A stretch of DNA of 48,699 nucleotides from a bacterium. GTDB taxonomy: Bacteria; Desulfobacterota_D; UBA1144. Made by a program: the position numbers and the translations under genes. Below, piece by piece: positions 9,364-48,455 of this stretch. The notes under the pieces were generated by a model. It did no database searches, was not told the origin of the DNA, and saw nothing but the letters and a program-made list of their open reading frames with translations. How positions within the stretch are numbered: the stretch's first letter is position 1; the number at the start of each line of letters is the position of its first letter. The stretch covers positions 1 to 48,699 of the forward strand of contig JABILG010000017.1 of assembly GCA_018654605.1 (NCBI GenBank), read 5' to 3'.

Positions 9364-9373
9364 TTCTTTATCC

Positions 9374-9402
9374 TTGACATTAAAATGACACGACAATATT
9401 AT
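9374..9402 (+). promoter_or_regulatory. bamD promoter, predicted leaderless
   Basis: TTGACA (9374-9379), a 17-bp spacer and TATTAT (9397-9402), with only seven bases before the bamD ATG at 9410. This near-consensus promoter should start transcription at or next to the start codon. Its -10 shares the heptamer TATTATA with the obgE -10 on the other strand. Confidence 0.8.
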
Positions 9403-9406
9403 AGCA
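9398..9406 (-). promoter_or_regulatory. obgE extended -10 promoter
   Basis: Minus strand TGCTATAAT (9406-9398) is a perfect extended -10; no good -35 is seen. The predicted leader is about 28 nt and holds AAGGA ahead of the obgE ATG. It lies on top of the bamD -10 box. Confidence 0.6.
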
Positions 9407-9409
9407 TCT

Positions 9410-10168
9410 ATGTTCAATCGATTATTAAAAGTTTTTTTTGTCTTAATTATCCTTGCATCATGTTCCAAAAGAGAAGATTTCTTAACTGGATCTGATCAAG
9501 AGATTTATAATCTAATAGTCAAAGAAATTAATAAAAAGAAGAAGTACTTAGTTTTAAATCATACTGATTTTAGCTTGCTAGAGGATATGATTACTACTCT
9601 CCAGATTAGGTACCCATATTCACCATACACAAGGGAGGCATATCTATTAAGTGGCGATGTTGCTTTTAAGAGAAAAAGATATCCATTAGCAATAAATGAA
9701 TATTCAGAGTTTATAAAGAATCAGGTTAATCACCCAAAAACAGATTATGCAACATTTAGAATCTTAAAGTCACACTCAATGCTAATAGCTGCTAAAGATA
9801 AGAATGTCGATCCTGCTAAAGATATTCTTAATATATATGCCACTTTGTCTGCTGTTTATAAAAGTACTGAATACATGGCAGAGACTGAAAGGATATACAA
9901 AAAAGCTAAGAGGTTCATCTTAAAAAGAGGAATTTATGTTGCCAAATATTATGTTAAGAAGGGAGAGTTTAGCTCAGCTTTAGGAAGGTTAAACAATACA
10001 GAAACTTTGGTTCCTAATTTAGCAAAAAATAGTGCAGAAGCTCAGTACCTTATAGTTTTGTCCCAAATTAAAACCTTAAAAGATGCAGATAAGATAACCT
10101 TAATAAGTTCTTACAAAAAAAGGTTTCCAAAATCAGATTTCATAGAAGATCTCGAGAACCTACTTTAA
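9410..10168 (+). CDS. bamD: BamD/YfiO-like outer-membrane assembly lipoprotein
   Basis: A 252-residue lipoprotein with a hydrophobic signal (residues 4-15) and lipobox L-A-S-C, lipidation expected at Cys18. The mature part has TPR-like helical repeats with the BamD-like sequence YPYSPYTREAYLLSGDVAFKRKRYPLAINEYSEFI in its first half. BamD is the essential lipoprotein partner of BamA in inserting beta-barrel proteins. Identity is inferred from lipobox, length and repeat pattern; a CpoB-like TPR lipoprotein is the main alternative. It heads a bamD-prmA-mtnA operon and has no Shine-Dalgarno because its promoter abuts the ATG. Confidence 0.65.
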   Translation: MFNRLLKVFFVLIILASCSKREDFLTGSDQEIYNLIVKEINKKKKYLVLNHTDFSLLEDMITTLQIRYPYSPYTREAYLLSGDVAFKRKRYPLAINEYSEFIKNQVNHPKTDYATFRILKSHSMLIAAKDKNVDPAKDILNIYATLSAVYKSTEYMAETERIYKKAKRFILKRGIYVAKYYVKKGEFSSALGRLNNTETLVPNLAKNSAEAQYLIVLSQIKTLKDADKITLISSYKKRFPKSDFIEDLENLL

Positions 10169-10173
10169 GGTAA

Positions 10174-11034
10174 ATGTACTTTATAGAATTGTTCACAAGT
10201 AAAGAAATCCCAGAAAGAGATTTTTTATTTTTTTATGAAGATTTTAATTGTGTCTTTACACAATATGAAGAAAAAGACGGATATAAAGTTGAAATAATAT
10301 TCTCTAAAAGAGATGATATAGATTTTTTTATAAACTTTTGTAATAACAGTTTCGATTTAAAGGGAAATTTATTGGCATCCTTAGTCGAAAATCCAACAAT
10401 TAAGACTTTTAAAAGCGAAGAGGCAGATAATTGGATAAAATTCTTGCCTCCCGTTAGTGTATGCTTTAATTATAAGATTGTATCACCATGGGACTCAACT
10501 AGAAGTATTGATGAAATTGTAATAAACCCTTCTATAGCATTTGGTACTGGCCATCATGAGACTACTAGTTCATGTTTAGAATTATTACTAAAAATTAAAC
10601 ATAATCTTTCTTCAGAAGAAAAGATTGACTCTGTATTAGATATTGGAACTGGCTCGGGAATTCTTAGTATTTTTTGTCTCAAGGTCTTTAAATCTAAAAT
10701 TATCGGAATTGACAATGATTATAATGCAATAGACCAGGCAAGAAAAAATTTACGATTAAATCCTTCTTTACCCAATATCGATTTTCGGTTAGAAGAGCTT
10801 GATTCTATCAATCATACTTTTGATTTAATAATTGCAAATATTTCCATTGAATACTTACTCTTGAATATTCATAAGATGTCTGAAAGGTTAAATCCAAACT
10901 CTTTTCTTTTAATTTCTGGATTTTTATTTATGAGAATTTCATCCATGAATTTTTTATTAATTAAAGAAAAATTTAGCATAATGAGTATAATTCATAAAAA
11001 CGATTGGATTAGCATGGTGATTAAAAAAAAATGA
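10174..11034 (+). CDS. prmA: Ribosomal protein L11 methyltransferase
   Basis: A 286-residue SAM-dependent methyltransferase that modifies ribosomal protein L11. The N-terminal domain is divergent. The catalytic half shows NPSIAFGTGHHETT, SAM motif I VLDIGTGSGILSIFC, acidic motif II IGIDNDYNAIDQA and the ANIS motif. Length is close to the family norm. It begins 5 nt after bamD and overlaps mtnA by ATGA. Confidence 0.88.
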   Translation: MYFIELFTSKEIPERDFLFFYEDFNCVFTQYEEKDGYKVEIIFSKRDDIDFFINFCNNSFDLKGNLLASLVENPTIKTFKSEEADNWIKFLPPVSVCFNYKIVSPWDSTRSIDEIVINPSIAFGTGHHETTSSCLELLLKIKHNLSSEEKIDSVLDIGTGSGILSIFCLKVFKSKIIGIDNDYNAIDQARKNLRLNPSLPNIDFRLEELDSINHTFDLIIANISIEYLLLNIHKMSERLNPNSFLLISGFLFMRISSMNFLLIKEKFSIMSIIHKNDWISMVIKKK

Positions 11035-12074
11035 GAGATATAATTTATTTTTCTGATTCTAAGACTGTTTTTGTTCTAGATCAAACATTATTGCCTTTTA
11101 AGGTTCACTACGTTGAAGCTAAGAGTTATAAGGTAGTTATTAAATTAATAAAGAACTTGAGCATTAGAGGGGCTCCAGCTATAGGCGTAGCAGGAAGTTT
11201 CGCTGCTTATTTGGCTCTTAGGGGTCTTTCTAGAAAGCCTAAGGATGAACTACTTAATATTGTAATTGGAAGATTAAGAGAGATAGCCTTTGCAAGGCCC
11301 ACAGCAGTAAACTTGACATGGTCTATTAAAAAATTTGAAAATATTTTGAATTCAAATATTGGTAAAAGTTTTAAATTTCTGTCCAAATTATTTTATATAG
11401 AAGCGTTGAGAATTTTTAATGAAGAAAAGAAAGTTTCTTTGTTAATTTCTAGGTTTGGTTCCGAACTTTTTTCTACGAACAATAAAGTTTTAACTCACTG
11501 TAATACAGGATCTTTGGCAACAACGGGGCCTGGTACAGCTCTTGGAGTTATTAAAGAAGCCAACAAGAAGAATAAGGGATTGCAAGTCTTTGCGACTGAG
11601 ACGAGACCTCTGTTGCAAGGATCGAGATTAACAGTCTGGGAATGTGAGCAAAATAATATTGATTGCACATTGTTAACTGATTCCATGGCATCACATATTA
11701 TTAAAGAAAAGAAGATTGACTTGGCAATAGTAGGAGCTGACAGAATAGCAGTAAATGGGGATGTTGCTAATAAGATTGGAACCTACCAGCTAGCAATAGT
11801 TTGCAAATACCATAAGATTCCCTTTTATGTAGCTGCTCCACTCTCAACCTTCGATTTTGAATGCGATGAGGGTAAGATGATTCAAATAGAAGAAAGATCT
11901 TCCGAGGAGGTCCTCAAGATTGGAGGAAAGCTCGTTTCTAAAGCGAGTAAAATTGTTAATCCCGCTTTTGATATTACCCCAAATAAATTAATTAGCGGAA
12001 TAGTAACAGAAAAAGGGATTATAATTAATCCAAGTAAGAAAAAGATTATTAAATTTAAAGATTGTTGCTATTAA
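11031..12074 (+). CDS. mtnA: S-methyl-5-thioribose-1-phosphate isomerase
   Basis: A 347-residue isomerase of the methionine salvage pathway, or of the related eIF-2B-alpha-like aldose phosphate isomerases. Conserved features are IRGAPAIGVAG, THCNTGSLAT with catalytic Cys157, ETRPLLQGSRLT, GADRIAVNGD with Asp237, and the C-terminal NPAFDITPNKLISGIVTE. No other salvage genes are in the window. It ends in a 20-base overlap with convergent dksA. Confidence 0.93.
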   Translation: MRDIIYFSDSKTVFVLDQTLLPFKVHYVEAKSYKVVIKLIKNLSIRGAPAIGVAGSFAAYLALRGLSRKPKDELLNIVIGRLREIAFARPTAVNLTWSIKKFENILNSNIGKSFKFLSKLFYIEALRIFNEEKKVSLLISRFGSELFSTNNKVLTHCNTGSLATTGPGTALGVIKEANKKNKGLQVFATETRPLLQGSRLTVWECEQNNIDCTLLTDSMASHIIKEKKIDLAIVGADRIAVNGDVANKIGTYQLAIVCKYHKIPFYVAAPLSTFDFECDEGKMIQIEERSSEEVLKIGGKLVSKASKIVNPAFDITPNKLISGIVTEKGIIINPSKKKIIKFKDCCY

Positions 12075-12567
12075 ATTCTTCTTCTTCCATGCAAGATAAG
12101 CAGTATCTTGTGAAGGGCATAACTCTTAATCTATTTTCATCAATAGGATCTTTACAGTAAGGGCATATACCATATGAGCCACTTTCAATCCTTTTTATTG
12201 CATCTTCAATCATTACCAGTTTTTGTCTGTCCCTTTGATTTAAAGATAAGGACAAGTCTCTTTCTCTGTCATTGGAAGCGTTATCATAAAAGTCGCCAAC
12301 ATCATGTTTAAGATGATTTGATTCTGTCTTAATTATTTTTGATATATCTTTAAGAATCTCATCACTCATTCCATTTAACATTTTTTTTATTTCATTCTTG
12401 AATTTCACAGGAAGCTTGTGTTTTGTTTTAGGAATGGAGGTTTTTTTAGTCTTTTTCTCTACTTTAATCTCTTTTAAAGCTATCACTTTCTTTTTTTGCT
12501 TAGCAACAGGCTTCTTTGTATCTTTTATGCTTTTTCTTCTATTTTTAGACTCTTTCTTTAATACCAT
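12055..12567 (-). CDS. DksA/TraR family zinc-finger protein with basic N-terminal extension
   Basis: A 170-residue DksA-type protein. The C-terminal four-cysteine zinc finger CPYC-x17-CLSC and the preceding coiled-coil helices (residues ~60-130) are clear; the family binds RNA polymerase through its secondary channel. The first ~50 residues are lysine-rich and low complexity, not part of the family fold. The ATG at 12567 is used because GGAG precedes it; reading further upstream would start inside the promoter. Whether it acts as true DksA with ppGpp cannot be told; the coiled-coil tip lacks an obvious DxxDxA motif. Confidence 0.8.
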   Translation of the reverse strand: MVLKKESKNRRKSIKDTKKPVAKQKKKVIALKEIKVEKKTKKTSIPKTKHKLPVKFKNEIKKMLNGMSDEILKDISKIIKTESNHLKHDVGDFYDNASNDRERDLSLSLNQRDRQKLVMIEDAIKRIESGSYGICPYCKDPIDENRLRVMPFTRYCLSCMEEEEFNSNNL

Positions 12568-12587
12568 TGTAAAACTCCGAATTTTAT

Positions 12588-12615
12588 AAGATAAGCGGAT
12601 TAAAATATTTGTCAA
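12588..12615 (-). promoter_or_regulatory. dksA-like gene promoter
   Basis: Minus strand TTGACA (12615-12610), a 16-bp spacer and TATCTT (12593-12588), giving a leader of about 14 nt with GGAG. Its -35 lies inside the heptamer TTGTCAA shared with the divergent transporter promoter. Confidence 0.6.
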
Positions 12616-12638
12616 GATTAATAATTTGAGGTTATTTT
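12609..12638 (+). promoter_or_regulatory. NSS transporter promoter
   Basis: TTGTCA (12609-12614), an 18-bp spacer and TATTTT (12633-12638). Transcription would start about 6 nt before the ATG at 12652, with no room for a Shine-Dalgarno. Confidence 0.45.
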
Positions 12639-12651
12639 ATATATAACTATT

Positions 12652-14172
12652 ATGGAAAAAAGAGATTTTTGGTTAACACGTTATGGACTGATTTTAGCAA
12701 TGGCTGGAAATGCTGTTGGGTTAGGAAATTTTTTGAGGTTTCCAGTTCAAGCTGCTGAGAATGGAGGAGGAGCCTTTCTTCTTCCATATATTATTTGCTT
12801 CATAGTAATTGGCATTCCTTTGATGTGGATAGAATGGGGCATTGGTAGACATGGGGGTTCTATCGGAAAAGGGACTACTTTTGGTATATCCAACAAGCTT
12901 AATATAAAAAAACCGATTCAAATTTTTTCGTTATTTGGAATATGGATTCCATTTGTAATATCAATCTATTATGTTTATATAGAGTCTTGGACATTGGGTT
13001 ATTCTATTAATTCTTTATTAGGAAATCTACAATCTAACCTAGTTGATCCATCAGCTAAGATGTCCTTCTATGGAGATATTTTTAAGGACTATATAGGAAT
13101 TAATAAAAGTTCTATCTTCCTTACACCTTCTTTTTATGCTTATGCGTGTTTTCTAGTCACTATTTATATTAACTATAAGATTCTGTCAAAAGGTATCGTT
13201 AATGGAATCGAAAGATTTGTTAAGATTGCCATGCCAGCTCTTTTTTTGATGAGCATCTTTCTTGTAATTTATACTTTTACATTGAAAACTTCAGTTTCTA
13301 CTTCATTGGAAGGTTTAAATTTTTTATGGACACCTGATCTTGGATATCTTTCTAATCCTAGAGTATGGGTTGCTGCAGCAGGACAAGTTTTCTTTACTCT
13401 TAGTTTAGGCTTTGGTGCCATTGTTACATATGCGTCATTCATAAAGAAAGATCAGGATATTGCTCTATCAGGGCTCACTTCAGCATCTATAAATGAACTT
13501 GTAGAAGTTGTATTCGGAGGTTCAATTGTTATACCGGCAGCAGTTGCATTTTTAGGTATATCAGGGGCTGTCTTAATTGCTCAGTCTGGCGCGTTCACTA
13601 TTGGCTTTATAGCTATGCCAGTTATTTTTGACGGAATAATTTATGGTAATCTTGTAGGTTTCTTATGGTTCTTTTTGTTGTTTATTGCTGGGTTAACGTC
13701 ATCAATAGGAATATTACAACCAGTAATAACTTTTGTGGTTGAGGAGTTTAACTATAGTCAAAGAAGAGCTTCACTGATTGTAGTGTTAACCATATTCTTT
13801 CTTTCGCAAGCTGTAATCTTTCTACCAGAATTCCTGGATGAATTCGACTTCTGGGCTGGTACAATTTTTCTAATTATTTTAGCCTTAGTTGAGATTGTAA
13901 TATTTATTTTTTATATTGCACCAAGAAATCCAATAGACGAGATAAATCGTGGAGGTTTAATCAGGATTCCCCAACTCTTTAATAAAATATTTAAAATATA
14001 TTTACCATTGCTTTTAGTTGCCTTGTTTGTTTCGTGGTTAATACAAGATATAAATAGCTCTAACTCCATAATATTTAAAAAAAGTTTGTGGTCATACCTA
14101 TCGAAGGCTGTTTTAATAAGTCTTTTTGTCTTCTTGATTGCAATTGTTTACAAGAAGGTTTATAAAAAATGA
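12652..14172 (+). CDS. Sodium-dependent NSS (SNF) family amino-acid transporter
   Basis: A 506-residue neurotransmitter:sodium symporter family protein with about twelve membrane segments. The first helix carries the substrate and Na+ site signature GNAVGLGNFLRFPVQA followed by NGGGAFLLPY. Bacterial members import amino acids such as methionine, alanine, tryptophan or tyrosine. It overlaps by four bases a 29-codon single-span protein resembling the MetS subunit of MetPS transporters, so a MetP-like methionine/alanine importer is the best guess. No Shine-Dalgarno is present. Confidence 0.9.
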   Translation: MEKRDFWLTRYGLILAMAGNAVGLGNFLRFPVQAAENGGGAFLLPYIICFIVIGIPLMWIEWGIGRHGGSIGKGTTFGISNKLNIKKPIQIFSLFGIWIPFVISIYYVYIESWTLGYSINSLLGNLQSNLVDPSAKMSFYGDIFKDYIGINKSSIFLTPSFYAYACFLVTIYINYKILSKGIVNGIERFVKIAMPALFLMSIFLVIYTFTLKTSVSTSLEGLNFLWTPDLGYLSNPRVWVAAAGQVFFTLSLGFGAIVTYASFIKKDQDIALSGLTSASINELVEVVFGGSIVIPAAVAFLGISGAVLIAQSGAFTIGFIAMPVIFDGIIYGNLVGFLWFFLLFIAGLTSSIGILQPVITFVVEEFNYSQRRASLIVVLTIFFLSQAVIFLPEFLDEFDFWAGTIFLIILALVEIVIFIFYIAPRNPIDEINRGGLIRIPQLFNKIFKIYLPLLLVALFVSWLIQDINSSNSIIFKKSLWSYLSKAVLISLFVFLIAIVYKKVYKK

Positions 14173-14258
14173 ATATAGATGCATTAATTTTTTTATCAGT
14201 CGCTTGGTCCTTAATATTTCTTTTAGTGGTAATTTGTATTCTAAAGCTTAATAAGTGA
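14169..14258 (+). CDS. MetS-like small subunit of the NSS transporter
   Basis: A 29-residue, single-transmembrane protein whose ATG overlaps the transporter stop (ATGA), implying translational coupling. It is MNIDA, one hydrophobic helix with a tryptophan near residue 13, and a basic tail KLNK. Small single-span MetS subunits encoded directly after NSS transporters are known from the MetPS system; size, position and layout match. Sequence similarity is too short to prove. Its last 11 bases overlap the convergent CDP-alcohol phosphotransferase gene. Confidence 0.7.
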   Translation: MNIDALIFLSVAWSLIFLLVVICILKLNK

Positions 14259-15483
14259 TATCAATTTTTTTTCTTAATTCTATAAAATCTGACACTTGAT
14301 GGAGTAGGCCTCCAATTAATAGAGTTGATGCTAAGATAGTAGCAGTCTCGTACCCTATTAAAGATACAAGAATCATACCAGGGGAAAAAAATTCTCTTTT
14401 TAACAAAAATCTAAACTTTGTCATTATACGATAGGTGAAAGATCTATCTTTTAAAGGAACGATTTTATCAACTTCACTAGGGTAATAGGCAAGACTCCCA
14501 TTCTGGGTTCTTCTTAGCATAAAAAACAAGATTGTAATTAGAAATATTAAGTACAAAAGTATGTTTAATATGGATAATTGTTTATAGATAATATTGTCGA
14601 CAGTAAAAGGAAAAAATTTTGGATTATTCATACAAATACTAATACCTAAGAACATTGAAAAGTATGAAAGTTGATCTAAAGCAGTATCGAACCATTGACC
14701 AAACTTAGATTCTCTAAGTTTTATTCTTGCAACTTCACCGTCACATCTATCCAATATCGTGGCGGATTGAAGTATTATCGCGCCAACAAAAGGCATATTC
14801 ATGGCATAAAAAATCCCACAAGATATTCCAATAAGACCCACAATAAATGTTATTACATTTGGATGAAGGGAGGTCTTTATTAGTACTTTACTTATGGGTA
14901 TAGATATTTTGCTGTTAATTGTTTTTGAGAACCAGCCGCTAACATTTTTACTTATATGGTCAAAGAGAAAGTCCCTGCCAGTATCTGATCCGATCTCATC
15001 AGTGCTAAGTTTTATCGGAGGATCTTTAGGGTCGATTTTTGTTAAGTTCTTATTTAAATTATTTAAATCACGGTGGTCACTATTCTCGCTAAGTTTGTAA
15101 TCCTTTTTTAAAAATATTATTCCACTATTCTTAATGCCACCTATAACTGTTGATTTTTTTTGATTATTAATAATGTCTAGAGTGGATTGAAGCTGTTTCT
15201 TGTTTATGACAACATTGTTTTGAAATATTAAGACATCTTCTTTGTTAAGAAAGTCAGACAAATTCTTTGATTGATGGATTTTAAAGTCAGGAAACTTTCT
15301 CTTTAATCTCTTAAAGCTTATTTCTGGAATATCAGCAATTAGGCCGGCATTACTAAATCCTTCCGCAGCTAGAATTAATAGCACCCTTTCAGTTAAACTT
15401 AAGCCACCTATCTTTTCATTTATAAATAAATCTAAATTTTCTGAATCTATTCCAAGTCCATTAGATATAACAACTGGCAGCAT
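14248..15483 (-). CDS. CDP-alcohol phosphotransferase with N-terminal nucleotidyltransferase-like domain
   Basis: A 411-residue membrane enzyme. The C-terminal part (from ~180) is a CDP-alcohol phosphatidyltransferase domain with the full motif D-x2-D-G-x2-A-R-x8-G-x3-D-x3-D (Asp245, Asp248, Asp266, Asp270) and several membrane helices. The first ~120 residues resemble the fold of a sugar-nucleotidyltransferase (GGLSLTERVLLILAAEGF aligns with the usual G-K-P-L-hydrophobic-R segment) but lack the glycine-rich nucleotide loop, so that domain is probably inactive. The architecture recalls bifunctional inositol-phosphate cytidylyltransferase/DIPP synthases. A complete nucleotidyltransferase lies immediately upstream in the operon. 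The alcohol acceptor is unknown. Confidence 0.8.
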   Translation of the reverse strand: MLPVVISNGLGIDSENLDLFINEKIGGLSLTERVLLILAAEGFSNAGLIADIPEISFKRLKRKFPDFKIHQSKNLSDFLNKEDVLIFQNNVVINKKQLQSTLDIINNQKKSTVIGGIKNSGIIFLKKDYKLSENSDHRDLNNLNKNLTKIDPKDPPIKLSTDEIGSDTGRDFLFDHISKNVSGWFSKTINSKISIPISKVLIKTSLHPNVITFIVGLIGISCGIFYAMNMPFVGAIILQSATILDRCDGEVARIKLRESKFGQWFDTALDQLSYFSMFLGISICMNNPKFFPFTVDNIIYKQLSILNILLYLIFLITILFFMLRRTQNGSLAYYPSEVDKIVPLKDRSFTYRIMTKFRFLLKREFFSPGMILVSLIGYETATILASTLLIGGLLHQVSDFIELRKKIDITY

Positions 15484-15492
15484 TTTTTCTTT

Positions 15493-16248: not shown

Positions 16249-16278
16249 CTTTTTCCTAAATATAATTAAGTTGAATTA

Positions 16279-16307
16279 TTTATAACTCTTATAAAAAATT
16301 AAGTCAA
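16279..16307 (-). promoter_or_regulatory. Promoter of the nucleotidyltransferase / CDP-alcohol operon
   Basis: Minus strand TTGACT (16307-16302), a 17-bp spacer and TATAAA (16284-16279), with a leader of about 25 nt that includes AGGAAAAAG just before the ATG at 16248. This separates the pair from panBCD upstream. The 147-base gap holds no other structure I can support. Confidence 0.6.
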
Positions 16308-16395
16308 CAAAATAAGCGAAAAAATCTTAATAATACTAGTATATTATCGGTTCGCACTTAATTTTTTATTTTAATTTAAGTAAATTAGTTAAATT

Positions 16396-16785: not shown

Positions 16786-16800
16786 AACAAGTATTTTAAA

Positions 16801-18415: not shown

Positions 18416-18431
18416 TACCCTTCCTTGATCA

Positions 18432-18459
18432 TTTACAATTTTATATATAGCTATATTAT
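18432..18459 (+). promoter_or_regulatory. alaC promoter, very short leader
   Basis: TTTACA (18432-18437), a 16-bp spacer and TATTAT (18454-18459), 11 bases before the alaC ATG at 18471. Its -10 is part of TATTATA, which on the minus strand reads TATAAT and may serve panB. Confidence 0.5.
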
Positions 18460-18460
18460 A
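18455..18460 (-). promoter_or_regulatory. Candidate panB -10 box
   Basis: Minus strand TATAAT (18460-18455) overlaps the alaC -10 box in the heptamer TATTATA. No good -35 lies 17 bp upstream. It would give a leader of roughly 33 nt with AAGGAAGGG before the TTG start. Confidence 0.4.
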
Positions 18461-18470
18461 TTTAAAAAAC

Positions 18471-19649
18471 ATGTCTATTAATAGTGAAAACTTTTCTCTT
18501 CTATCAAAACTGCCCCAGTATGTATTTTCGTCTGTAAATGAACTTAAATACGAAGCAAGAATTCGTGGTGAGGATATAATTGATTTTGGTATGGGAAATC
18601 CAGACCAACCAACGCCAAGACATATAATTGAGAAATTGTTGGAATCTTCTGTTCAAGGGAGAAATCATAGGTATTCGGTTTCCGCAGGCTTGCCAAAATT
18701 GAGACTTGCTATAAGTAGCTGGTATAAAAGAAATTATAATGTTGATTTAGACCCAGAAACCGAGACCATAGTTACTATAGGGTCAAAAGAAGGATTGTCA
18801 CATTTAATGATTTCTTTGTTAGCACCTGGCGAGACGGTCTTGGTTCCTGACCCTTGCTATCCTATTCACAGCTACTCCGTCCTTATTGCGAGAGGAAATA
18901 TAAAAGAATATAACTCGATAGATGACAAAAGATTATTAGAAAATATTGAACAAGGTTTAAAGTCAGAGCCTAAGCCCAAAGCCTTAATAATATCTTTTCC
19001 TAGCAATCCAACTACGCAAACTGTTGAGTTGGATTTTTTCACTAAGATTGTAGAGCTTGGCAAGAAATATTCAGTAATTGTAATTCATGATTTTGCTTAT
19101 GCCGATATTTGCTTTGATAATTATAAGGCACCTAGTTTCCTCCAAGCTTCAGGGTCAATGGATGTTGGCGTTGAGTCTTTCTCTTTATCTAAGAGCTACA
19201 ATATGGCGGGATGGCGTGTTGGTTTTATGTGTGGGAATAGTGAAGTCATATCTGCACTTAAAAGAGTTAAAAGTTATCTGGATTATGGGATATTCCAACC
19301 AATTCAAATATCAGCTATCACGGCCTTAAACGAAACTCAGGAATGTGTTAATGAAATTAGGGAAAACTATAGATTAAGAAGGAATAGGCTTGTTGATGGA
19401 TTAAACAAAATAGGTTGGGAGATTGAGACTCCAAAGGCAACTATGTTTGTCTGGGCAAAGATTCCCAATCAATTCATAGAACTAGGGTCGTTGGAATTTT
19501 CAAAAAAATTAATTAAGGAATGTAATGTTGCCGTTTCTCCCGGAATTGGTTTTGGTAAAAGTGGCGATGAGTATGTAAGATTTGCTCTTATAGAAAATGA
19601 ACAACGAATACAACAAGCGGCAAGGTCACTCAGAAAACTATTTAAATAA
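18471..19649 (+). CDS. alaC: AlaC-like class I aminotransferase
   Basis: A 392-residue PLP-dependent fold-type I aminotransferase. Features include the GMGNPDQPTP substrate segment near residue 40, SNPTTQTVE, HDFAYADI, and the PLP-binding lysine Lys241 in SLSKSYNMAGWRVGF. This set matches alanine-forming AlaC/YfdZ-type enzymes that transfer an amino group between glutamate and pyruvate, though LL-diaminopimelate aminotransferase relatives are close. It overlaps mltD by one base (TAATG) and has no Shine-Dalgarno. Confidence 0.8.
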   Translation: MSINSENFSLLSKLPQYVFSSVNELKYEARIRGEDIIDFGMGNPDQPTPRHIIEKLLESSVQGRNHRYSVSAGLPKLRLAISSWYKRNYNVDLDPETETIVTIGSKEGLSHLMISLLAPGETVLVPDPCYPIHSYSVLIARGNIKEYNSIDDKRLLENIEQGLKSEPKPKALIISFPSNPTTQTVELDFFTKIVELGKKYSVIVIHDFAYADICFDNYKAPSFLQASGSMDVGVESFSLSKSYNMAGWRVGFMCGNSEVISALKRVKSYLDYGIFQPIQISAITALNETQECVNEIRENYRLRRNRLVDGLNKIGWEIETPKATMFVWAKIPNQFIELGSLEFSKKLIKECNVAVSPGIGFGKSGDEYVRFALIENEQRIQQAARSLRKLFK

Positions 19650-20857: not shown

Positions 20858-20858
20858 A

Positions 20859-21515: not shown

Positions 21516-21565
21516 TATTCTTGATTAGCAGGTAATATGTTTAATAATTCTTTAAAGGAGTTCTT

Positions 21566-23696: not shown

Positions 23697-23718
23697 GTTT
23701 CCCTAATAATTATTCTAA

Positions 23719-23747
23719 TTGACTAAAACTATTAAAGGAAGTATTTT
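23719..23747 (+). promoter_or_regulatory. carA promoter, near-leaderless
   Basis: TTGACT (23719-23724), a 17-bp spacer and TATTTT (23742-23747), ten bases before the ATG at 23758. Family alignment fixes that ATG as the start, so the expected leader is only about 3 nt. An in-frame TTG exists inside the -35 box itself and is not a start codon. Confidence 0.65.
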
Positions 23748-23757: not shown

Positions 23758-24828
23758 ATGGATAAAAATTGTATTTTATACCTAGAAAATGGTGAAGTCT
23801 TTGAGGGATTTTCTTTTGGTTTTAACGGTGAAGCCCTAGGGGAAATTGTGTTTAACACGTCTATGACAGGCTATCAGGAAATATTAACTGATCCATCCTA
23901 CCATTCACAGATTGTTCTGATGACTTATCCTCACATTGGGAATTATGGAATTAATGACTCTGATAACGAATCTGATTCTTGTTTTGCTAAAGGATTGATA
24001 GTTAGAGAGCACTGTGACTACCCTTCAAACTTTACTTCAAAGCAATCTTTAGATTCCTATCTCAAACAAAATGAAGTTGTTGGTATTTCAGGGATTGATA
24101 CAAGAAAATTGGTAAGAATAATCAGAGGAGATGGTTCTCAGAAATGTATTATCAGCAACGATAAAGACTTATTAAGGTTGAAAGATAAAATTAATAAGTT
24201 TCCAATAATGCAAGGTAATGATTTGACCTTGAGTGCAACCTGCAAGGAGATTTATACTGTTGCAGGAGAAGAAGATGCAAAGAAAGTTTTTGTATATGAT
24301 TTCGGATGCAAGAGAAATATTATTCAGATCCTTAATCAAGAATTTGGTTTAAATGTAGTTGTTGGACCTTGTGACACTAGTCCAAATTTAATTAAAGATA
24401 TTAATCCAGATGGAATACTTTTATCTAACGGACCTGGTGACCCTGCTGCAGCTATTTACGCAATTAATAATATCAAGAAATTGATTGGTTATAAGCCAAT
24501 TTTTGGTATTTGCTTAGGGCATCAACTCCTATCTCTTGCACTTGGTATGGAAACTTTTAAGTTGAAGTTTGGCCACAGAGGAGGAAATCATCCTGTTATG
24601 GAGGTTGAATCAGGCAAGGTTGAGATCACCTCTCAAAACCATGGTTTTGCTGTTAGCAATAAAGAAATTGCTGACGTTGTAATAACGCACATTAACTTAA
24701 ATGATAAGACGGTTGAAGGCATAGAATCTAAAAAGAACAAGTGCTTCTCAGTACAACATCATCCAGAGGCCTCACCTGGTCCACACGACTCAAGAAAATA
24801 TTTTAAAAAGTTTGTTGAGACTATTTAA
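23758..24828 (+). CDS. carA: Carbamoyl-phosphate synthase small (glutaminase) subunit
   Basis: A 356-residue CarA, which supplies ammonia from glutamine to CarB for arginine and pyrimidine synthesis. The N-terminal domain shows GEIVFNTSMTGYQEILTDPSY. The class I amidotransferase triad is Cys252 in FGICLGHQ with His335 and Glu337 in HHPEASPGP. The N terminus MDKNCILYLENGEVFEG aligns directly with other CarA starts. carB is not in the window; instead gshB follows with a TAATG overlap. Confidence 0.96.
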   Translation: MDKNCILYLENGEVFEGFSFGFNGEALGEIVFNTSMTGYQEILTDPSYHSQIVLMTYPHIGNYGINDSDNESDSCFAKGLIVREHCDYPSNFTSKQSLDSYLKQNEVVGISGIDTRKLVRIIRGDGSQKCIISNDKDLLRLKDKINKFPIMQGNDLTLSATCKEIYTVAGEEDAKKVFVYDFGCKRNIIQILNQEFGLNVVVGPCDTSPNLIKDINPDGILLSNGPGDPAAAIYAINNIKKLIGYKPIFGICLGHQLLSLALGMETFKLKFGHRGGNHPVMEVESGKVEITSQNHGFAVSNKEIADVVITHINLNDKTVEGIESKKNKCFSVQHHPEASPGPHDSRKYFKKFVETI

Positions 24829-28598: not shown

Positions 28599-28626
28599 TT
28601 GATTTTGGTTATATATGTGTTAAATT
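28599..28626 (+). promoter_or_regulatory. Candidate rpsB promoter
   Basis: TTGATT (28599-28604), a 16-bp spacer and TAAATT (28621-28626), 13 bases before the ATG at 28640. This would give a leader of about 6 nt without a Shine-Dalgarno, too short for a typical S2 autoregulatory leader. Confidence 0.4.
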
Positions 28627-28639: not shown

Positions 28640-29524
28640 ATGAGTAATGAAGAAAACATCGAAAAACCTATTGAAAAAGACCAAGACACTGTAATCACAA
28701 TGAAGCAGCTTTTAGAAGCTGGCGTTCATTTTGGTCATCAATCAAGTCAATGGAACCCTGCAATGAAAGATTATATTTATGGTTCTAGGAATGGGATTCA
28801 TATTATTGATTTACAGAAGACTTTAAAGTCTTTTTTGATAGCATATGATTTCGTTAGAGATTTAACATCAACTGGAAAGGATATACTTTTTGTAGGTACC
28901 AAAAAACAAGCTCAAGAAATTATAGGCGAAGAAGCTATAAAATGTGACATGCCTTTTGTTAATTCAAGGTGGTTAGGTGGGACTTTAACTAATTTTAATA
29001 CAATAAGATCTAGAGTTGAATACATGCTCCAGCTGAAAAGATTGAAAGAAGATGGTGAATTTGAGAACTTACCTAAGAAGGAGCAAATTAGTCTAAATAG
29101 AGAGCTAGCAAAGCTTGAATATCTATTAAATGGAATCGTAAATATGAGGAAAATGCCCGCAGCTCTTTTTGTGGTCGATACTAAGAAAGAAGATATAGCT
29201 ATTAAAGAAGCCAGGAAACTTGGTATACCTATCGTTGGTGTAGTCGATACAAATTCTAATCCCTCAGATGCTGACTTTGTTATTCCTAGTAATGATGACG
29301 CTATACGGGCTGTTAAATTATGTGTTGAAAAAATGGCTTCAGCTACAAACGAGGGAAGACTTATTTACTCACAGAAAGTCAATTCTGGGCAGATTCAACC
29401 TGAAGAAGACTCTCAGGATGGTGTCATAGTTGAAAGGAAAGCTTTTGTTTTTAAGACTAACACCCCGGAAAACGAGCAAGAGTCAGTGGTTTACTCAGAA
29501 GATAAGACAGAAGAAAAAGTGTAA
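28640..29524 (+). CDS. rpsB: 30S ribosomal protein S2
   Basis: A 294-residue S2. The family sequence begins at [16 protein letters not shown] (residue ~19) and includes [22 protein letters not shown] and [14 protein letters not shown]. There are about 18 extra acidic residues at the N terminus and a ~45-residue acidic tail. First gene of the standard rpsB-tsf-pyrH-frr group. Confidence 0.97.
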
Positions 29525-33746: not shown

Positions 33747-33748
33747 AA

Positions 33749-35754: not shown

Positions 35755-35760
35755 TAAAGA

Positions 35761-37606: not shown

Positions 37607-37613
37607 TTTTTTC

Positions 37614-39034: not shown

Positions 39035-39037
39035 AAT

Positions 39038-39715: not shown

Positions 39716-39719
39716 CTTG

Positions 39720-42562: not shown

Positions 42563-42574
42563 TTTAATAAGAAC

Positions 42575-42583
42575 ATTATAGCA
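42575..42583 (-). promoter_or_regulatory. Extended -10 promoter of the tolC-rseP run
   Basis: Minus strand TGCTATAAT (42583-42575), identical to the obgE extended -10. Predicted transcription start about 5 nt before the tolC ATG at 42562. No strong -35. It touches the hemW start codon at 42583. Confidence 0.55.
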
Positions 42584-43749
42584 TGAGTAACAAATTTGGT
42601 ATATATATTCACATTCCTTTTTGTAAAACAATATGCCCTTTCTGTAATTTTAATGTTTACCTCTCAAGTTCAGCTGACTACGATGAACTAGTTTCTTTTT
42701 TGTTGGATGAATTAAGAACCAAATCCGTCTTATTTTCTGACAAGAAGCTAGTGAGCATACATTTTGGTGGAGGAACACCATCTTTACTTCCCCCTCGTTT
42801 GTTAAAAAAGATTCTTAATCAGATAGAAAGATTGTTTTTAGTAGAATCAGATTGTGAAATTGCTCTAGAGATTAATCCTTACGATAATGAAGTCGAAGAG
42901 CCTGTATTATTTAAAGATCTTGGTATAAACAGACTTAGCGTCGGGATTCAATCTTTTAACAACAAAAAACTTAAGATATTAGGAAGGAATTCCACTAAAG
43001 AATCTAATCTGTATTTTATTAGGAAGATCTCGGATTGTGGATTTACAAACTTAAGCTTTGATTTTATTTTTGGAGTTGACAAGGAGTCGCTAAAAGAATG
43101 GGAAGAGGAGCTGTTACATTTAAAAGAACTTGATATTCAACATGTGTCGACTTATTGCCTAACGATTGAAAAGTCAACAGCTTTTTGGAAAATGCGTGAC
43201 AGAGGAGATATTGTAGAAGTCTCAGATAACATTTTTTTAGATATGATGGATTTAACAAAAAAACAATTAAATCAGATTGGAATTGAACAGTATGAGATTT
43301 CTAATTATTCAAAACCATTATACGAGTCAAGGCATAATTTATTATACTGGAATAGCGATTCGTATCTTGGTATTGGTCCAGGAGCACACTCATCATTAAT
43401 TGATATTGAAGAGGGTAAATATTACAGGTGGAGTAATCCTAAATCAATTAAGCAGTATGGAAAACTTTTAAGTTTAAAATCTGATACTTTAATAAACCAC
43501 TCATTGGGAATACGAGAATATATTAAAGACACTTTTATGATGGGGTTGAGATTAAAGAAAGGTGTAAATATCGAGAGCCTGAACTTGGTAAGCAGCTTCT
43601 CTATTAACCAGCGAATAATTGACGAGCTAACAAAGCAGCACTTGATTGTGAATAAAGATAATAACCTCGCTTTGACTGATACGGGCTTTAATGTTTCAAA
43701 TGAAGTAATATTTAGAGTTATAGATAATATTGATTTTATTGATGATTAA
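42583..43749 (+). CDS. hemW: HemW-like radical SAM haem chaperone
   Basis: A 388-residue radical SAM protein of the HemW (former HemN-like) family. The cluster motif C-x3-C-x2-C is Cys14, Cys18, Cys21 (CKTICPFC), and the family motif HFGGGTPSLL and the SAM-binding LSVGIQSF are present. HemW binds haem and delivers it to respiratory proteins; it is not a coproporphyrinogen oxidase. It ends with a 14-base overlap with convergent DUF1285. Confidence 0.93.
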   Translation: MSNKFGIYIHIPFCKTICPFCNFNVYLSSSADYDELVSFLLDELRTKSVLFSDKKLVSIHFGGGTPSLLPPRLLKKILNQIERLFLVESDCEIALEINPYDNEVEEPVLFKDLGINRLSVGIQSFNNKKLKILGRNSTKESNLYFIRKISDCGFTNLSFDFIFGVDKESLKEWEEELLHLKELDIQHVSTYCLTIEKSTAFWKMRDRGDIVEVSDNIFLDMMDLTKKQLNQIGIEQYEISNYSKPLYESRHNLLYWNSDSYLGIGPGAHSSLIDIEEGKYYRWSNPKSIKQYGKLLSLKSDTLINHSLGIREYIKDTFMMGLRLKKGVNIESLNLVSSFSINQRIIDELTKQHLIVNKDNNLALTDTGFNVSNEVIFRVIDNIDFIDD

Positions 43750-44158
43750 TCAAACATGAACCAATATAATATTTACCATCTGTTATTTTAATAATTTTAC
43801 TAATTTGATAAAGCGCTGGCCTAGAGAATCTTGCTTCAAAAACTCCCTGTTTTACAGAGCAGTACGGGATATTGTTTTTAAAATAAAGACTGCTCACGTC
43901 CAACTCCTCTTTGGTTGAATCATTAAGCAGTAAAACTGTTTTTTTTTCGGATACATCTGCTATTCTAACAAGAAACGGCTTGTCTTCAAAGTCTACATAA
44001 GCTATGGATTTTTCTTCTTGAACAAAAAAAACCTTATCTTTATTTATCTTTAGATGTTTATAATTAAAGTTGTAGATACCTTTGTGTGTAATTGCTTTTC
44101 CGTCCTGAAACCAATTGCACTCTTTATCTACGAAAAAACGATACTTAATTTTATTCAC
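43736..44158 (-). CDS. DUF1285 family protein
   Basis: A 140-residue soluble protein. The pattern D-x5-W-F-x2-G-x2-I at the N terminus, VDFEDKPFLV in the middle, and PYCSVKQGVFEARFSRPALYQI near the C terminus match DUF1285, a proteobacterial family of unknown function. GTG at 44158 overlaps the pdxH stop (GTGA), so it is the likely start. It closes the run from the sigma factor. Confidence 0.65.
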   Translation of the reverse strand: MNKIKYRFFVDKECNWFQDGKAITHKGIYNFNYKHLKINKDKVFFVQEEKSIAYVDFEDKPFLVRIADVSEKKTVLLLNDSTKEELDVSSLYFKNNIPYCSVKQGVFEARFSRPALYQISKIIKITDGKYYIGSCLINHQ

Positions 44159-44778
44159 GGTGACAATATCCTACTTTCCCATTTATTTTTATTTCTTTTG
44201 TATTCTATCCTCTGATGAAGCCTGTCTTTGCCTCCTTGCCAAAATTCAATTGTAATTGGTTTAAGCTGATAACCGGTCCAATTAATTGGAAAAGGAACTT
44301 TTTTGTTCTTAAATCGCAACTTGTTTGCGTGAAACTCGTTTACTAGAACCTCATATGAGCTTATCTTTGAACTTTGATTTGATGAAAGTGCGCCTAGCTG
44401 ACTATCTATAGGCCTTGAATAGAAATACTTCTTAACTGTAGCCAAGCTAAGTTGAGACAAAGTTCCCTCTATGCGAATTTGTCTCTGCATTTCTTTCCAC
44501 CAAAACAACATCGAGGCCGATTCATTTACGATTATTTCTCTTCCTTTCCTACTGCTAATGTTGGTATAAAAAGTAAAATTAGTGGAGAATTTTTTAAGTA
44601 ACATCATTCTAGATGACGGCTTATTCTTAAAACTTGTGGATAAAGCAAAAGCATTTGGTTCAGAAACTTTTTTTTCTGCTTCTAAATACCATTTCTTAAA
44701 AAGTTTTAGCGGAGATATCTCTACATGAAATATGTCACTTTTGTTCTTATATGTTTTTCTTGTTTTACTAATATTCAT
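44155..44778 (-). CDS. pdxH: Pyridoxamine 5'-phosphate oxidase
   Basis: A 207-residue FMN enzyme that makes pyridoxal 5'-phosphate. It shows RMMLLK, FYTNISSRKGREI, RQIRIEG, SRPIDSQLGALSSNQS, and the C-terminal IEFWQGGKDRLHQRIEY. It lies between the SRPBCC-epimerase gene and DUF1285. Confidence 0.94.
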   Translation of the reverse strand: MNISKTRKTYKNKSDIFHVEISPLKLFKKWYLEAEKKVSEPNAFALSTSFKNKPSSRMMLLKKFSTNFTFYTNISSRKGREIIVNESASMLFWWKEMQRQIRIEGTLSQLSLATVKKYFYSRPIDSQLGALSSNQSSKISSYEVLVNEFHANKLRFKNKKVPFPINWTGYQLKPITIEFWQGGKDRLHQRIEYKRNKNKWESRILSP

Positions 44779-44799
44779 ATATAAAAGTTACTAAATACT

Positions 44800-46212
44800 T
44801 TAAAGGTTGTCCAATGCCTTGTTTATAGTTGGAGCAAAAAATCTATATTTATTCTCTAATAATCTTTTAGGAGATATTTTTTGATTAGATAAAACAATCT
44901 CATCAACTAATTCTTTTAACAAAAACCTTGGAATAGAAGATGGAATATTAATAAAGAATTTAGACTTATATTTTTTTGCTAATAAAGTAAAAAGGTGCTT
45001 ACTTTGAATTGGGACCGGGCTTACTGCATTTATCGCCCCGTCATAATTATTGTTGTTAAAGCTTTTTTCTATAATTCTTACTAAATCCTCAAGTAGTATC
45101 CAATTTACAAAGTTTTCACCTTTGCCCACGTAGCTTGCGAGCCCAGCTTTAAAAGGTAGCTCAATTTGTTTGATTAGACCACCTTTGCTTGACAAAACAA
45201 CCCCTATACGTAAATTAACATTTCTTTCTGTTAGTTTCTTAAATTTATTTTGCTCTTTTTCCCACTCTTTAGTGGTTTGTGCAAGAAATCCATATCCTGA
45301 GGAGTTGTATTCGTCCAATAACCGATTTTTGTTTAAGCCATAATAACCAACAGCAGAAGCATGAACACAACATTTAGCTTTTATTGAATTCTTTTCAAGA
45401 ACTCTAAGTAAGCTTCTTGTAGGAATTATTCTACTTTTAACAATTGATTTCTTTTTTGACTTTGTCCAGATCCCTAATATATTTTCTCCTGATAGATTAA
45501 CAACAAACTTAATTTTTTCTCGAATATCAGGAGGAATGCATAAATCATCATCGATATAAGGGTTCCATGCTATCTCTATTAAATCCTTATTATGTGATTT
45601 CATTTTGATTGCAGAAGGAGAAGGTTTATAATGCTTCTCATATTTTAGAAATACCACTTTGTATCCTAAAGAGTTTAACAGAGGAATTAGAGCTGAACCT
45701 ACTAAGCCGCTAGACCCAGTTACTAATACATAGTATCCATTTGTATTATCATAGGCATTAGAGAGGTCGTGTTCTAAGATATCAGTTCTATATTTAAAGG
45801 ATTTTCTAATACTCTCCAAAGTAAAATTGTTCAATTTTTTAACGTTAATCCAGTGGGAGAAAGAAATCTCATCTTGAATAGTGGTCTGGCTTGTTGAGGT
45901 TCTTATAAAATTATGAGTGTGCTGCCATTCTTTAATCGGACCAGACACCAAGGTATCACAAAAGGATACACCCTCTTTGAATCTCGAGGAATTGTGAGAA
46001 ATTTTCCATTTAACTTTTATTAAAGGCAGAATTTCTTGTTGAAGAGTAATCTTTCCGTCTTTTAAAAAAAGATTTCCAACAGGTTCCCTCTTTGTGACAG
46101 TGACCTTATCCCAGGGCGGCGTTAACCTCTCAAGAGCCATGAACTTTTTGTGCCAATTCCAAACCTTGTGGATATCGTGCTTGTAGGTCTTTGAAAAATT
46201 AAAAAAAACCAT
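44800..46212 (-). CDS. SRPBCC domain fused to TIGR01777-type epimerase
   Basis: A 470-residue two-domain protein. Residues 1-~150 form an SRPBCC-like (START/Bet v1) domain; the rest is a TIGR01777 NAD(P)-binding SDR with GSSGLVGSALI, VNLSGENI and the ASAVGYYG motif. The fusion is known in other bacteria; function is unclear, and old names such as cell-division inhibitor are not supported. The ATG at 46212 follows immediately after the stop codon of the 51-aa gene (TAA then ATG), indicating tight coupling. Confidence 0.88.
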   Translation of the reverse strand: MVFFNFSKTYKHDIHKVWNWHKKFMALERLTPPWDKVTVTKREPVGNLFLKDGKITLQQEILPLIKVKWKISHNSSRFKEGVSFCDTLVSGPIKEWQHTHNFIRTSTSQTTIQDEISFSHWINVKKLNNFTLESIRKSFKYRTDILEHDLSNAYDNTNGYYVLVTGSSGLVGSALIPLLNSLGYKVVFLKYEKHYKPSPSAIKMKSHNKDLIEIAWNPYIDDDLCIPPDIREKIKFVVNLSGENILGIWTKSKKKSIVKSRIIPTRSLLRVLEKNSIKAKCCVHASAVGYYGLNKNRLLDEYNSSGYGFLAQTTKEWEKEQNKFKKLTERNVNLRIGVVLSSKGGLIKQIELPFKAGLASYVGKGENFVNWILLEDLVRIIEKSFNNNNYDGAINAVSPVPIQSKHLFTLLAKKYKSKFFINIPSSIPRFLLKELVDEIVLSNQKISPKRLLENKYRFFAPTINKALDNL

Positions 46213-46368
46213 TTAGTAGAATAATAATAGATTTCTAGTATTTCTTCTAATACTTTTAAAACTAGAATCTTTTGTTGAGCGTATAACCTTTCTTTCTTTT
46301 TTTTCTCTAACTTTATGTTTACTTTTAAAAGTAGTTGATGTTGGTTTTTGCTGAATATGAAATGTCAT
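46213..46368 (-). CDS. Small basic protein, function unknown
   Basis: A 51-residue open frame between the sigma factor and the epimerase. It begins MTFHIQQKPTSTTF, is rich in Lys and Arg (HKVREKKERKVIRSTKD and SIRRNTRN), and ends LLLFY. AGGAG stands 6 nt before the ATG and the stop abuts the next ATG, so it is very likely translated. The high positive charge suggests nucleic-acid or ribosome binding, but no family is recognised. Confidence 0.6.
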   Translation of the reverse strand: MTFHIQQKPTSTTFKSKHKVREKKERKVIRSTKDSSFKSIRRNTRNLLLFY

Positions 46369-46376
46369 AAATTCTC

Positions 46377-47381
46377 CTAGTTTAAGAAACCCTTTAACGA
46401 TAATCCATAATTTTTTTCGATTTTTCTTAAGGCTTTTTTCTCTATTTGTCTTATTCTTTCCCTAGTTAAGCTAAATCTTCTACCTATCTCATCTAAAGTC
46501 AGAATTTCAGAGTTATTAATACCAAATCTTAGGTTTATAATCTCCTTCTCGCGATTACTTAAGTCTGATAGCGCCAAATTAATAGTCTCCTGAAGAGAAG
46601 AATGAGCCGAGAGTTCGTCTTGTAAAACATTCTCATCCTGGAGAAAGTCCATAAAAGAAGAGTTTTCTTCTCCTGAAACAGGTGAATCTAAAGAGAAAGT
46701 GTCTGAACCTGAATCAAGTATTTGCTTTACAGCCTCAATTGGAAGGTCAACTTCGATTGCAATTTCAAACAACTCAGGTTTTCTAGACAAATCTTTCTCA
46801 AGTTTTTTATTCGCTTTAAAAACCTTCGCTGACTTCTCAAGTATGTAGACAGGAACTTTTATTGATCTGGATTGATCCATAATACTTCTAGTGATTGATT
46901 GATGTATCCACCATGCTGCATAAGTTGAGAATTTAAACCCTCTTGTATGGTCAAATTTTTCGACTGCCCTCATAAGTCCAACATTTCCCTCTTGAATTAA
47001 ATCAATTAGAGGAACCCCTTTATTTGCATATTTTTTTGCTATACTAACGACAAGCCTTAAATTAGATTTAGTAAACGACTGGAAAATTTGATTCTTTTTA
47101 TTTTTTACTGCTTTTAAAAAACTTTCTAACTTTTTTTTGTCTTTACCATTTCCCAAGCCAAGTCTTTTCTCAAATGAATTTATTTGAGCATCACAAGATT
47201 TTAGCTGAGAAGAAAGTGTTCTTTCTTCTGAAGATGAAAGAAGAGGGGACATTAAAGCTTTCGAAAAATACTCTTTCACTGAATCGTACTCAGATGCATC
47301 ATTTCTTCCAGAAACGAAGGTGGATTTGGAATTAAGAAAATTATTAGATTTACTATTAGAAGATTTATTTTTTTGATTCAT
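46377..47381 (-). CDS. Sigma-70 family RNA polymerase sigma factor (group 1/2, no region 1.1)
   Basis: A 334-residue sigma factor. Region 1.2 starts near [19 protein letters not shown]; region 2 has [22 protein letters not shown] and [13 protein letters not shown] for -10 recognition; region 4.2 has [17 protein letters not shown]. The acidic region 1.1 and the large non-conserved insert of housekeeping RpoD are absent, so it resembles an RpoS/group 2 factor; without the rest of the genome it could still be the main one. A TGGACA-17-TACAAT promoter and GAGAGG lie upstream. Confidence 0.88.
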
Positions 47382-47398
47382 TTTTCACCTCTCCCTAT

Positions 47399-47427
47399 AT
47401 TGTATAACCATGTCTGGTCTTTGTCCA
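47399..47427 (-). promoter_or_regulatory. Sigma factor gene promoter
   Basis: Minus strand TGGACA (47427-47422), a 17-bp spacer and TACAAT (47404-47399), with a ~11-nt leader containing GAGAGG before the ATG at 47381. Confidence 0.6.
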
Positions 47428-47476
47428 TCTTTTTTTTAAAAAATCTTCTAAAAGCTCGACATACGTATTCAATATA

Positions 47477-47504
47477 TTGACAAGTAATTTGGATAATTTA
47501 TGAT
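47477..47504 (+). promoter_or_regulatory. Promoter of the CarH-like regulator gene, predicted leaderless
   Basis: TTGACA (47477-47482), a 16-bp spacer and TATGAT (47499-47504), with only six bases before the ATG at 47511. Transcription is expected to begin at the start codon. Confidence 0.75.
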
Positions 47505-47510
47505 TTAAAT

Positions 47511-48455
47511 ATGAACAATAAAGATTATCCAATCAGAGTAGTAACTAAAATCACAGGTTTAACGGCTGATCAGATTAGGAAATGGGAAGAAAGGTATTCC
47601 ATACTTAATATTACTAGATCATCCAAAGGAAGTAGGAGGTTTACTGATAAGGACCTGGAATTACTTCAACTTATGCTTGAGGCCAAAAGAATCGGGTTTT
47701 CCTTGCAAGAAATAGGTGAATTGACCATATTGGAACTTAGGAATATTGTTAACAATTTTAAAGGAAATTCGTCAAATGTTATGTACCCGGAGCTAGAACA
47801 GCTTAGTAGCTCAACTAAAGTCTATTTTGATATTTGCATTGAATCACTAAAAGACTACAACATTAGTAAAATGGAGAAAGCTATTTATCAGGTAGCTATG
47901 GAAATAGGGGCAGTGTATGTGATACATAAATTTATGGTTCCCTTTATTAAGCATGTTGGTAGACTATGGAAGAATAATAAGATTTCGAAATCCCAAGAAC
48001 GTTTTGCTAATGCAGTTATAAGAAATTATTTAGAGAGTTATAGGTCATCGTTCAAGGAGTTTAATGATAAGAATCCAGTTGCCTTAATAGCAACACCTAA
48101 GGGGCAAAAAGCAGAGTTAGGGTGCCTTGTTAATGCATGTATCTCTGTGGCTACCGGTTGGAACAATATTTACCTTGGTACTGATTTATCTTCTGATGAT
48201 TTAGTTGAAGCTACTAAAATTTCCAAGTGCTCATGTTTAGTACTAAGTGTTTTGTATCCCTTAGATGACAAATCACTAATTTTAGAACTCAAGAAGATTA
48301 GACAAGGTATCGGGGACAGTGTTGAAATAATAATTAATGGAAAGAAGTCCACTATTTATACTGAAACTTATAAAGAGATAAGAGCAAGAGTTGTTCATGA
48401 TCTATTCTCTATGCCTAGTCTCTTTGAAGAACTTAGATTGAAATCAATTGTTTAG
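47511..48455 (+). CDS. CarH/LitR-like MerR regulator with degenerate cobalamin-binding site
   Basis: A 314-residue regulator: an N-terminal MerR winged helix (residues ~6-75; ITGLTADQIRKWEERY), a four-helix bundle (~100-180) and a Rossmann B12-binding-like domain (~188-300). In light-sensing CarH/LitR proteins a Trp and a Glu-His in the helix bundle cap adenosylcobalamin, and a His in the GxxHxLG loop binds cobalt. Here Trp153 remains, but the Glu-His reads Glu163-Arg164 and the loop reads GQKAELG with Ala201 in place of His. It may be apo-acting or sense something else. It has a leaderless-type promoter and is divergent from a sigma factor. Confidence 0.85.
   Translation: MNNKDYPIRVVTKITGLTADQIRKWEERYSILNITRSSKGSRRFTDKDLELLQLMLEAKRIGFSLQEIGELTILELRNIVNNFKGNSSNVMYPELEQLSSSTKVYFDICIESLKDYNISKMEKAIYQVAMEIGAVYVIHKFMVPFIKHVGRLWKNNKISKSQERFANAVIRNYLESYRSSFKEFNDKNPVALIATPKGQKAELGCLVNACISVATGWNNIYLGTDLSSDDLVEATKISKCSCLVLSVLYPLDDKSLILELKKIRQGIGDSVEIIINGKKSTIYTETYKEIRARVVHDLFSMPSLFEELRLKSIV

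Follow-up and report, generated by a model that had tools for sequence, protein, structure and literature searches.

The window analysed here, a 48,699-nt stretch of contig JABILG010000017.1 (assembly GCA_018654605.1, UBA1144 lineage), carries eight genes whose predicted promoters lie so close to the start codon that their mRNAs would have no leader or a very short one. The genes encode a nitrite/sulfite reductase, BamD, an NSS transporter, AlaC, CarA, ribosomal protein uS2 (rpsB), TolC and a CarH-like MerR-type protein. An earlier note on this DNA had claimed distances of 9, 7, 13, 11, 10, 13, 12 and 6 nt, respectively, between the end of the -10 box and the start codon (hereafter the gap); all eight were re-measured and found equal. 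A -35-like hexamer is located 16–18 bp upstream in seven of the eight promoters, and tolC has an extended -10 element instead. The window belongs to a metagenome-assembled genome (MAG) of 1.02 Mb in 19 contigs (92% complete, 33% GC), the rpsB of which finds its nearest matches among marine MAGs from uncultured organisms, including one with the label Candidatus Dadabacteria UBA1144. Streamlined genomes have been described for marine Dadabacteria (PMC8115339). The relatives used for comparison fall into families f1 to f6 of one class, f1 being the genome's own family with 14 genomes in genera g1–g5; 41 genomes were covered overall.

By their gaps, the promoters fall into two predicted classes: leaderless (gap 5–8; bamD and the CarH-like gene) and very short-leadered (gap 9–13; the other six). 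The bamD promoter (9374–9402, + strand) consists of TTGACA at 9374–9379, a 17-bp spacer and TATTAT at 9397–9402, 7 nt before the ATG at 9410, and the arrangement TTGAC[AT]-N17-TATTAT with 6–7 nt to the ATG is kept in 14/14 f1 genomes. Four f4 and some f2 genomes also have TTGACA plus a TAnnnT-like box 6–8 nt before the bamD start. The CarH-like gene is preceded by TTGACA (47477–47482), a 16-bp spacer and TATGAT (47499–47504) on the + strand (promoter 47477–47504), 6 nt before the ATG at 47511. The same geometry was found across genus g1 (L249–L253), and a gap of 6–7 in four f4 genomes (L261–L264); in g3 and g4 the leader is longer, and GGAG or AGG is frequent in it.

Among the promoters with longer gaps, that of rpsB (28599–28626, + strand) combines TTGATT at 28599–28604, a 16-bp spacer and TAAATT at 28621–28626, 13 nt before the ATG at 28640. 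The TAAATT box is preceded by TGT (extended -10), there is no Shine-Dalgarno sequence, and the leader is predicted to be ~5–7 nt long. The block TTGATT-N16-TAA[AC]TT-TTC[AT]GCTTATATT-ATG is near-identical in 13 of the 14 f1 genomes. rpsB of the other families has a longer leader with a Shine-Dalgarno sequence (AGGAGG, GGAGGA or GGAGAA), the gene itself passing from a Shine-Dalgarno leader to a predicted near-leaderless start. The G005 copy (L151) has 4 extra nt (AGGT) directly before the start that shift the block, and an alternative upstream start is possible there. GCTTAT, considered as an element shared before rpsB and rpsU, was dropped; rpsU here has GGAG and a longer leader.

The carA promoter (23719–23747, + strand; TTGACT at 23719–23724, 17 bp, TATTTT at 23742–23747) ends 10 nt before the ATG at 23758 and is conserved in G000, G001 and G005. 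The in-frame TTG at 23719 belongs to the -35 hexamer and is not the start; the assertion that homology fixes the start at 23758 held, the orthologues in 13/13 other f1 genomes aligning from residue 1–3. On the - strand, tolC has the extended -10 TGCTATAAT (42575–42583; box TATAAT), 12 nt before the ATG (start 42562), with TATAAT or TATACT at 12 nt in G000/G001; in G005, TATAAT-N12-ATG can be read. Between the start of tolC and that of the divergent HemW/HemN-like gene (42583) lie 20 bp, and the tolC -10 overlaps the HemW/HemN-like start codon. The alaC promoter (18432–18459, + strand; TTTACA at 18432–18437, 16 bp, TATTAT at 18454–18459) lies 11 nt before the ATG at 18471 and is conserved in G005. 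That of the nitrite/sulfite reductase (1474–1502, - strand) has TTGACA at 1497–1502, a 17-bp spacer and TACTAT at 1474–1479, 9 nt from the ATG (start 1464). The weakest of the eight is the putative NSS transporter promoter (12609–12638, + strand; TTGTCA at 12609–12614, an 18-bp spacer, TATTTT at 12633–12638; 13 nt to the ATG at 12652), whose TTGTCA is kept in G001/G005 at a varying distance from the start.

Gene starts were assigned genome-wide by a simple hexamer-based caller that picks starts by coding score, yielding 424 first genes of operons in this genome; bamD was missed because a spurious open reading frame overlaps it, and was examined by hand. The genome-wide plot of the gap proposed in the earlier note has a peak, at 6 nt: in 62 of the 424 first genes, TANNNT ended exactly 6 nt upstream of the start, versus 22 expected (P = 3e-12). 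An unbiased scan of four-letter patterns ranked TANANT at gap 6 second, behind Shine-Dalgarno only. Raw counts of TATAAT-Nx-ATG and TTGAC...TANNNT-Nx-ATG over the genome, made without gene calling, gave too little signal. A sigma-70 promoter model with a flat, position-blind prior on distance was trained on 743 first genes from three f1 genomes, with shuffled sequence as the control for site counts, and learned TTGACA, TATAAT and a 16–17-bp spacer by itself. Its sites at gaps 5, 6, 7 and 8 numbered 15, 51, 16 and 22 versus ~3 each in shuffled sequence (3.1 at gap 6), or 104 versus 12.4 when pooled, and an additional broad bump appeared at gaps 26–38. The gap-6 set also shows raised G at -14, as in an extended -10, and -35-like hexamers that peak at spacers of 16–17, alike in first genes and operon-internal genes. 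Among operon-internal genes (≤60 bp from an upstream co-oriented gene), gap-6 TANNNT occurred 54 times versus ~18, with -35 support, which hints at internal leaderless promoters.

These features bear on the idea that TANNNT is no promoter and instead a translation-related AT-rich element of leadered mRNAs. The region is indeed AT-rich, and atypical AT-rich pre-start signals are known in Bacteroidetes and others (PMC3160421); still, the single exact distance, the -35 hexamer at 16–17 bp, the extended -10 G and the occurrence of the signal in genes without a Shine-Dalgarno sequence make this idea highly improbable, as does the absence from this genome of ribosomal protein S1 (bS1), the usual proposed reader of such elements. 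That the start codons were misassigned, with true starts downstream and longer real leaders, gains some credit from the home-made caller and its failure on bamD. It is hardly credible in view of the peak that remains for genes with unambiguous starts and no alternative nearby (33 versus 9.9 per gap) and of orthologues with identical start and gap. Start codon usage differed in first genes with a gap-6 box, TTG being rarer (1/62 versus 34/362) and GTG commoner (7/62 versus 9/362).

The excess at gaps 9–13 was weaker. With the -35 included, the model found 43 sites versus 15.3 shuffled (P = 5e-9); TANNNT alone was not significantly enriched there in this genome (123 versus 110, P = 0.12), so AT richness has to be taken seriously as a confounder at these distances. 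The fixed geometry postulated by the earlier note thus stood for the gap 5–8 class and not for gaps 9–13, where the evidence for the predicted sites is -35 support and conservation. Both bear on the view that only the boxes at gaps 6–8 are real and those at 9–13 arose by chance as -10-like strings in AT-rich sequence, a view that the lack of TANNNT enrichment and the weak NSS site with its unconserved distance would favour. The excess seen once the -35 is counted and the conservation of the rpsB, carA, tolC and alaC promoters in relatives render it unlikely. So does the retention of 9/20 gap 9–13 boxes in G005 against a background of 10.5%, an excess to which general near-start conservation may add.

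Shine-Dalgarno use depended on the gap of the best promoter: the core was present in 0/46 genes of this genome at gaps 5–8, 1/20 at 9–13 and 31/60 at 20–39. The gap-6 TANNNT peak and the missing Shine-Dalgarno core are the signature of a TA-led leaderless class. In the three f1 genomes the Shine-Dalgarno excess amounts to 19–26% of first genes, and a lineage that had abandoned Shine-Dalgarno was rejected on this ground. Shine-Dalgarno initiation is thus predicted to persist beside the leaderless class, and the lineage would not rely on leaderless starts alone. IF2-like and IF3-like genes are both present, as judged by sequence motif, and the 70S- or IF2-dependent initiation suggested by the earlier note is a conjecture. 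Several promoters per gene are common, and the boxes could be real and yet secondary, with stronger upstream promoters yielding leadered mRNAs and normal initiation. This is quite unlikely, since several of the genes stand in divergent pairs with little room upstream and the gap 5–8 genes have no Shine-Dalgarno at all, so that longer transcripts would still need a route independent of it.

The predicted leaderless promoters are conserved in orthologues of the same family: gap-6 boxes were kept in 12/13 cases in G001 (background 39%) and 7/11 in G005 (background 10.5%). The best promoter lay at gap 5–8 in 91 of the 743 f1 first genes (~12% at the strict threshold), compared with 6/194 in f4 and f5 (P = 6e-5 versus f1) and 7/174 in f3 (P = 9e-4), counts that rest on genome samples of only 200 kb each for f4 and f5. 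The same model did find leadered promoters in f4/f5 and is therefore not at fault for their low count. A fixed-spacer search in g3/g4 placed 17/34 distinct matches at gaps 6–8 (duplicates collapsed by eye). Orthologues of this genome's leaderless genes had a Shine-Dalgarno sequence in 0/45 cases in G001 and G005 and in 8/17 in G017, from another family; individual genes therefore appear to have switched. These results place the predicted leaderless trait mainly in one streamlined marine family, f1. They also bear out the claim that there are first genes, rpsB included, with leaderless or near-leaderless promoters, which is well supported by the model excess and by conservation. The top-scoring genes are mostly housekeeping or biosynthetic: L36, trpE, smc, hemB, tatC, polyprenyl synthetase and uvrC. 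trpE in G023 and G017 (f3, f4) has TTGACT plus a -10-like box 8–9 nt before the start and, like bamD and the CarH-like gene, may have been near-leaderless since early in the history of the class.

The same family has lost bS1 in part. Profile searches (TIGR00717 and PF00575) found no bS1 in G000–G005 and G008, that is, in 7 of the 14 f1 genomes including this one; they make up genera g1, g2 and g5, three of the five genera. The other seven f1 genomes (g3, g4) keep a strongly diverged copy. rpsA profile scores fall from ~475–510 bits in f2/f4 to 307–320 in f3 and 95–157 in g3/g4, with no bS1-like match in g1, g2 and g5; S1 domains decrease from 6–11 in other families to 1–2. When the f3 bS1 protein was searched against this genome, the sole match was a 701-residue protein whose size and S1 domain identify it as PNPase. 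rpsA lies between ispH and sppA in the other seven f1 genomes and in f5 (G036); here aroA-cmk-ispH-sppA run gapless in mid-contig and rpsA is gone from the ispH/sppA junction (G000 C1:14195–16554, L081). ispH and sppA adjoin in 7/7 S1-less f1 genomes, with -8 to +34 bp between matches, and this, together with the mid-contig position in this genome, indicates clean gene loss rather than an assembly gap. bS21 is kept in 41/41 genomes, bS1-less (7/7) and bS1-bearing alike. As evidence of a putatively altered initiation, the absence of bS1 carries more weight than the promoters by themselves. In each of the five g4 genomes (G007, G010, G011, G012, G013), but not in g3, the sppA match contains a single in-frame TAA; the gene may be split or shifted there, or its frame may end at that point.

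From the promoter architecture, the 6-nt peak, the missing Shine-Dalgarno, the conservation, the concentration in one family and the bS1 deletion in three of five genera, we infer the 5' ends of the mRNAs, translation from those ends and the order of events as follows. Ordinary sigma-70 promoters would be sited so that transcription begins at the A of the start codon when the -10 ends 5–8 nt upstream, and a few bases before it at 9–13 nt; the ribosome would then engage the 5' end of the leaderless or near-leaderless mRNA directly, without a Shine-Dalgarno helix. In the f1 ancestor, genome streamlining most likely shortened leaders and moved promoters beside start codons. Fewer leadered mRNAs, together with AT-rich, weakly folded mRNAs, could then have relaxed the need for bS1, which would have degenerated in g3 and g4 and been deleted in g1, g2 and g5. 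The remaining Shine-Dalgarno genes probably yield mRNAs with a strong Shine-Dalgarno and little structure, for which S1 is not required. Leader loss probably preceded bS1 loss, because g3/g4 pair leaderless promoters with a diverged bS1, an order drawn from few, undated events.

Several observations weigh against this account. No promoter above threshold was found for 218/424 first genes of this genome, about half, so the fractions of leaderless genes are uncertain. The 16S rRNA 3' end, from which the anti-Shine-Dalgarno would be read, was not found in the sequence analysed. Leaderless promoters of bamD and the CarH-like gene occur also in families with a full bS1, and the gap 6–8 pattern also in g3/g4, which keep a diverged one; the leaderless trait thus probably came before the loss of bS1, and the causal link between the two is a correlation over very few independent events. 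We nevertheless consider the promoter geometry and the account of streamlining followed by bS1 loss, taken as a whole, very likely to be correct. More tentatively, and with somewhat less than even confidence, we suggest that leaders were trimmed until bS1 became dispensable and was deleted in a sub-clade whose S1-free ribosomes use leaderless and unstructured strong-Shine-Dalgarno mRNAs. The link between leaderless mRNAs and S1-free ribosomes rests mainly on work in E. coli. Published work finds that leaderless mRNAs come off the ribosome when S1 is overproduced, and that unstructured mRNAs with a strong Shine-Dalgarno do without S1 (PMC3858243).

Leaderless expression is of a known kind and occurs in many phyla (PMC3160421). 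The promoters here resemble the leaderless genes of Deinococcus-Thermus and Actinobacteria, in which TANNNT has its first T ~12 nt before the start and coexists with a Shine-Dalgarno class (PMC3160421, PMC12340547). The signal is commoner there, at ~30–39% of open reading frames in Deinococcus-Thermus and averages near 19% in Actinobacteria (PMC3160421, PMC12340547), than here, where it is concentrated in one family, f1, and is carried by about one in eight of its first genes at the strict threshold. A classical -35 is absent from most of the D. radiodurans cases, whereas -35 hexamers are detectable here. Mollicutes, most of which lost S1, repeatedly, and in which ~18% of mRNAs are predicted to be leaderless (PMC4014445), share the reduced genome, S1 loss and predicted leaderless mRNAs. 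They are, however, parasites derived from Firmicutes, whereas the present lineage is pelagic and marine and has genes for the outer membrane (bamD, tolC). In Mollicutes, S1 and S21 seem to exclude each other (PMC4014445); here bS21 is kept with or without bS1, and a diverged bS1 intermediate survives in the sister genera g3/g4.

Gram-negative ribosomes normally load leadered mRNAs via S1. S1 has been called essential for Gram-negative translation initiation (PMC4288201). We found no account of a free-living Gram-negative bacterium that has lost bS1 (crude search of open papers) and none of leaderless genes in Dadabacteria (open papers). What is new is that leaderless expression and bS1 loss occur together in a free-living Gram-negative lineage. 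With bS1 full in some close relatives, diverged in others and deleted in yet others, genes can be compared one by one, which offers a natural test of the role of S1. The change here, from Shine-Dalgarno to leaderless, runs counter to the decreasing trend described among bacteria (PMC3160421). In these marine genomes, starts may be placed wrongly by gene callers that were trained on Shine-Dalgarno sequences.

The E. coli rpsB-tsf operon is regulated by an S1-S2 complex, according to work cited in PMC3296737. rpsB heads its operon here as in E. coli; unlike in E. coli, the f1 rpsB leader has only a few predicted nt (~four more in G005) and bS1 is diverged or missing. The uS2 protein encoded at 28640–29521 of the window has 294 residues with extensions, and 14 positions that are fixed in S1-bearing families differ across f1.

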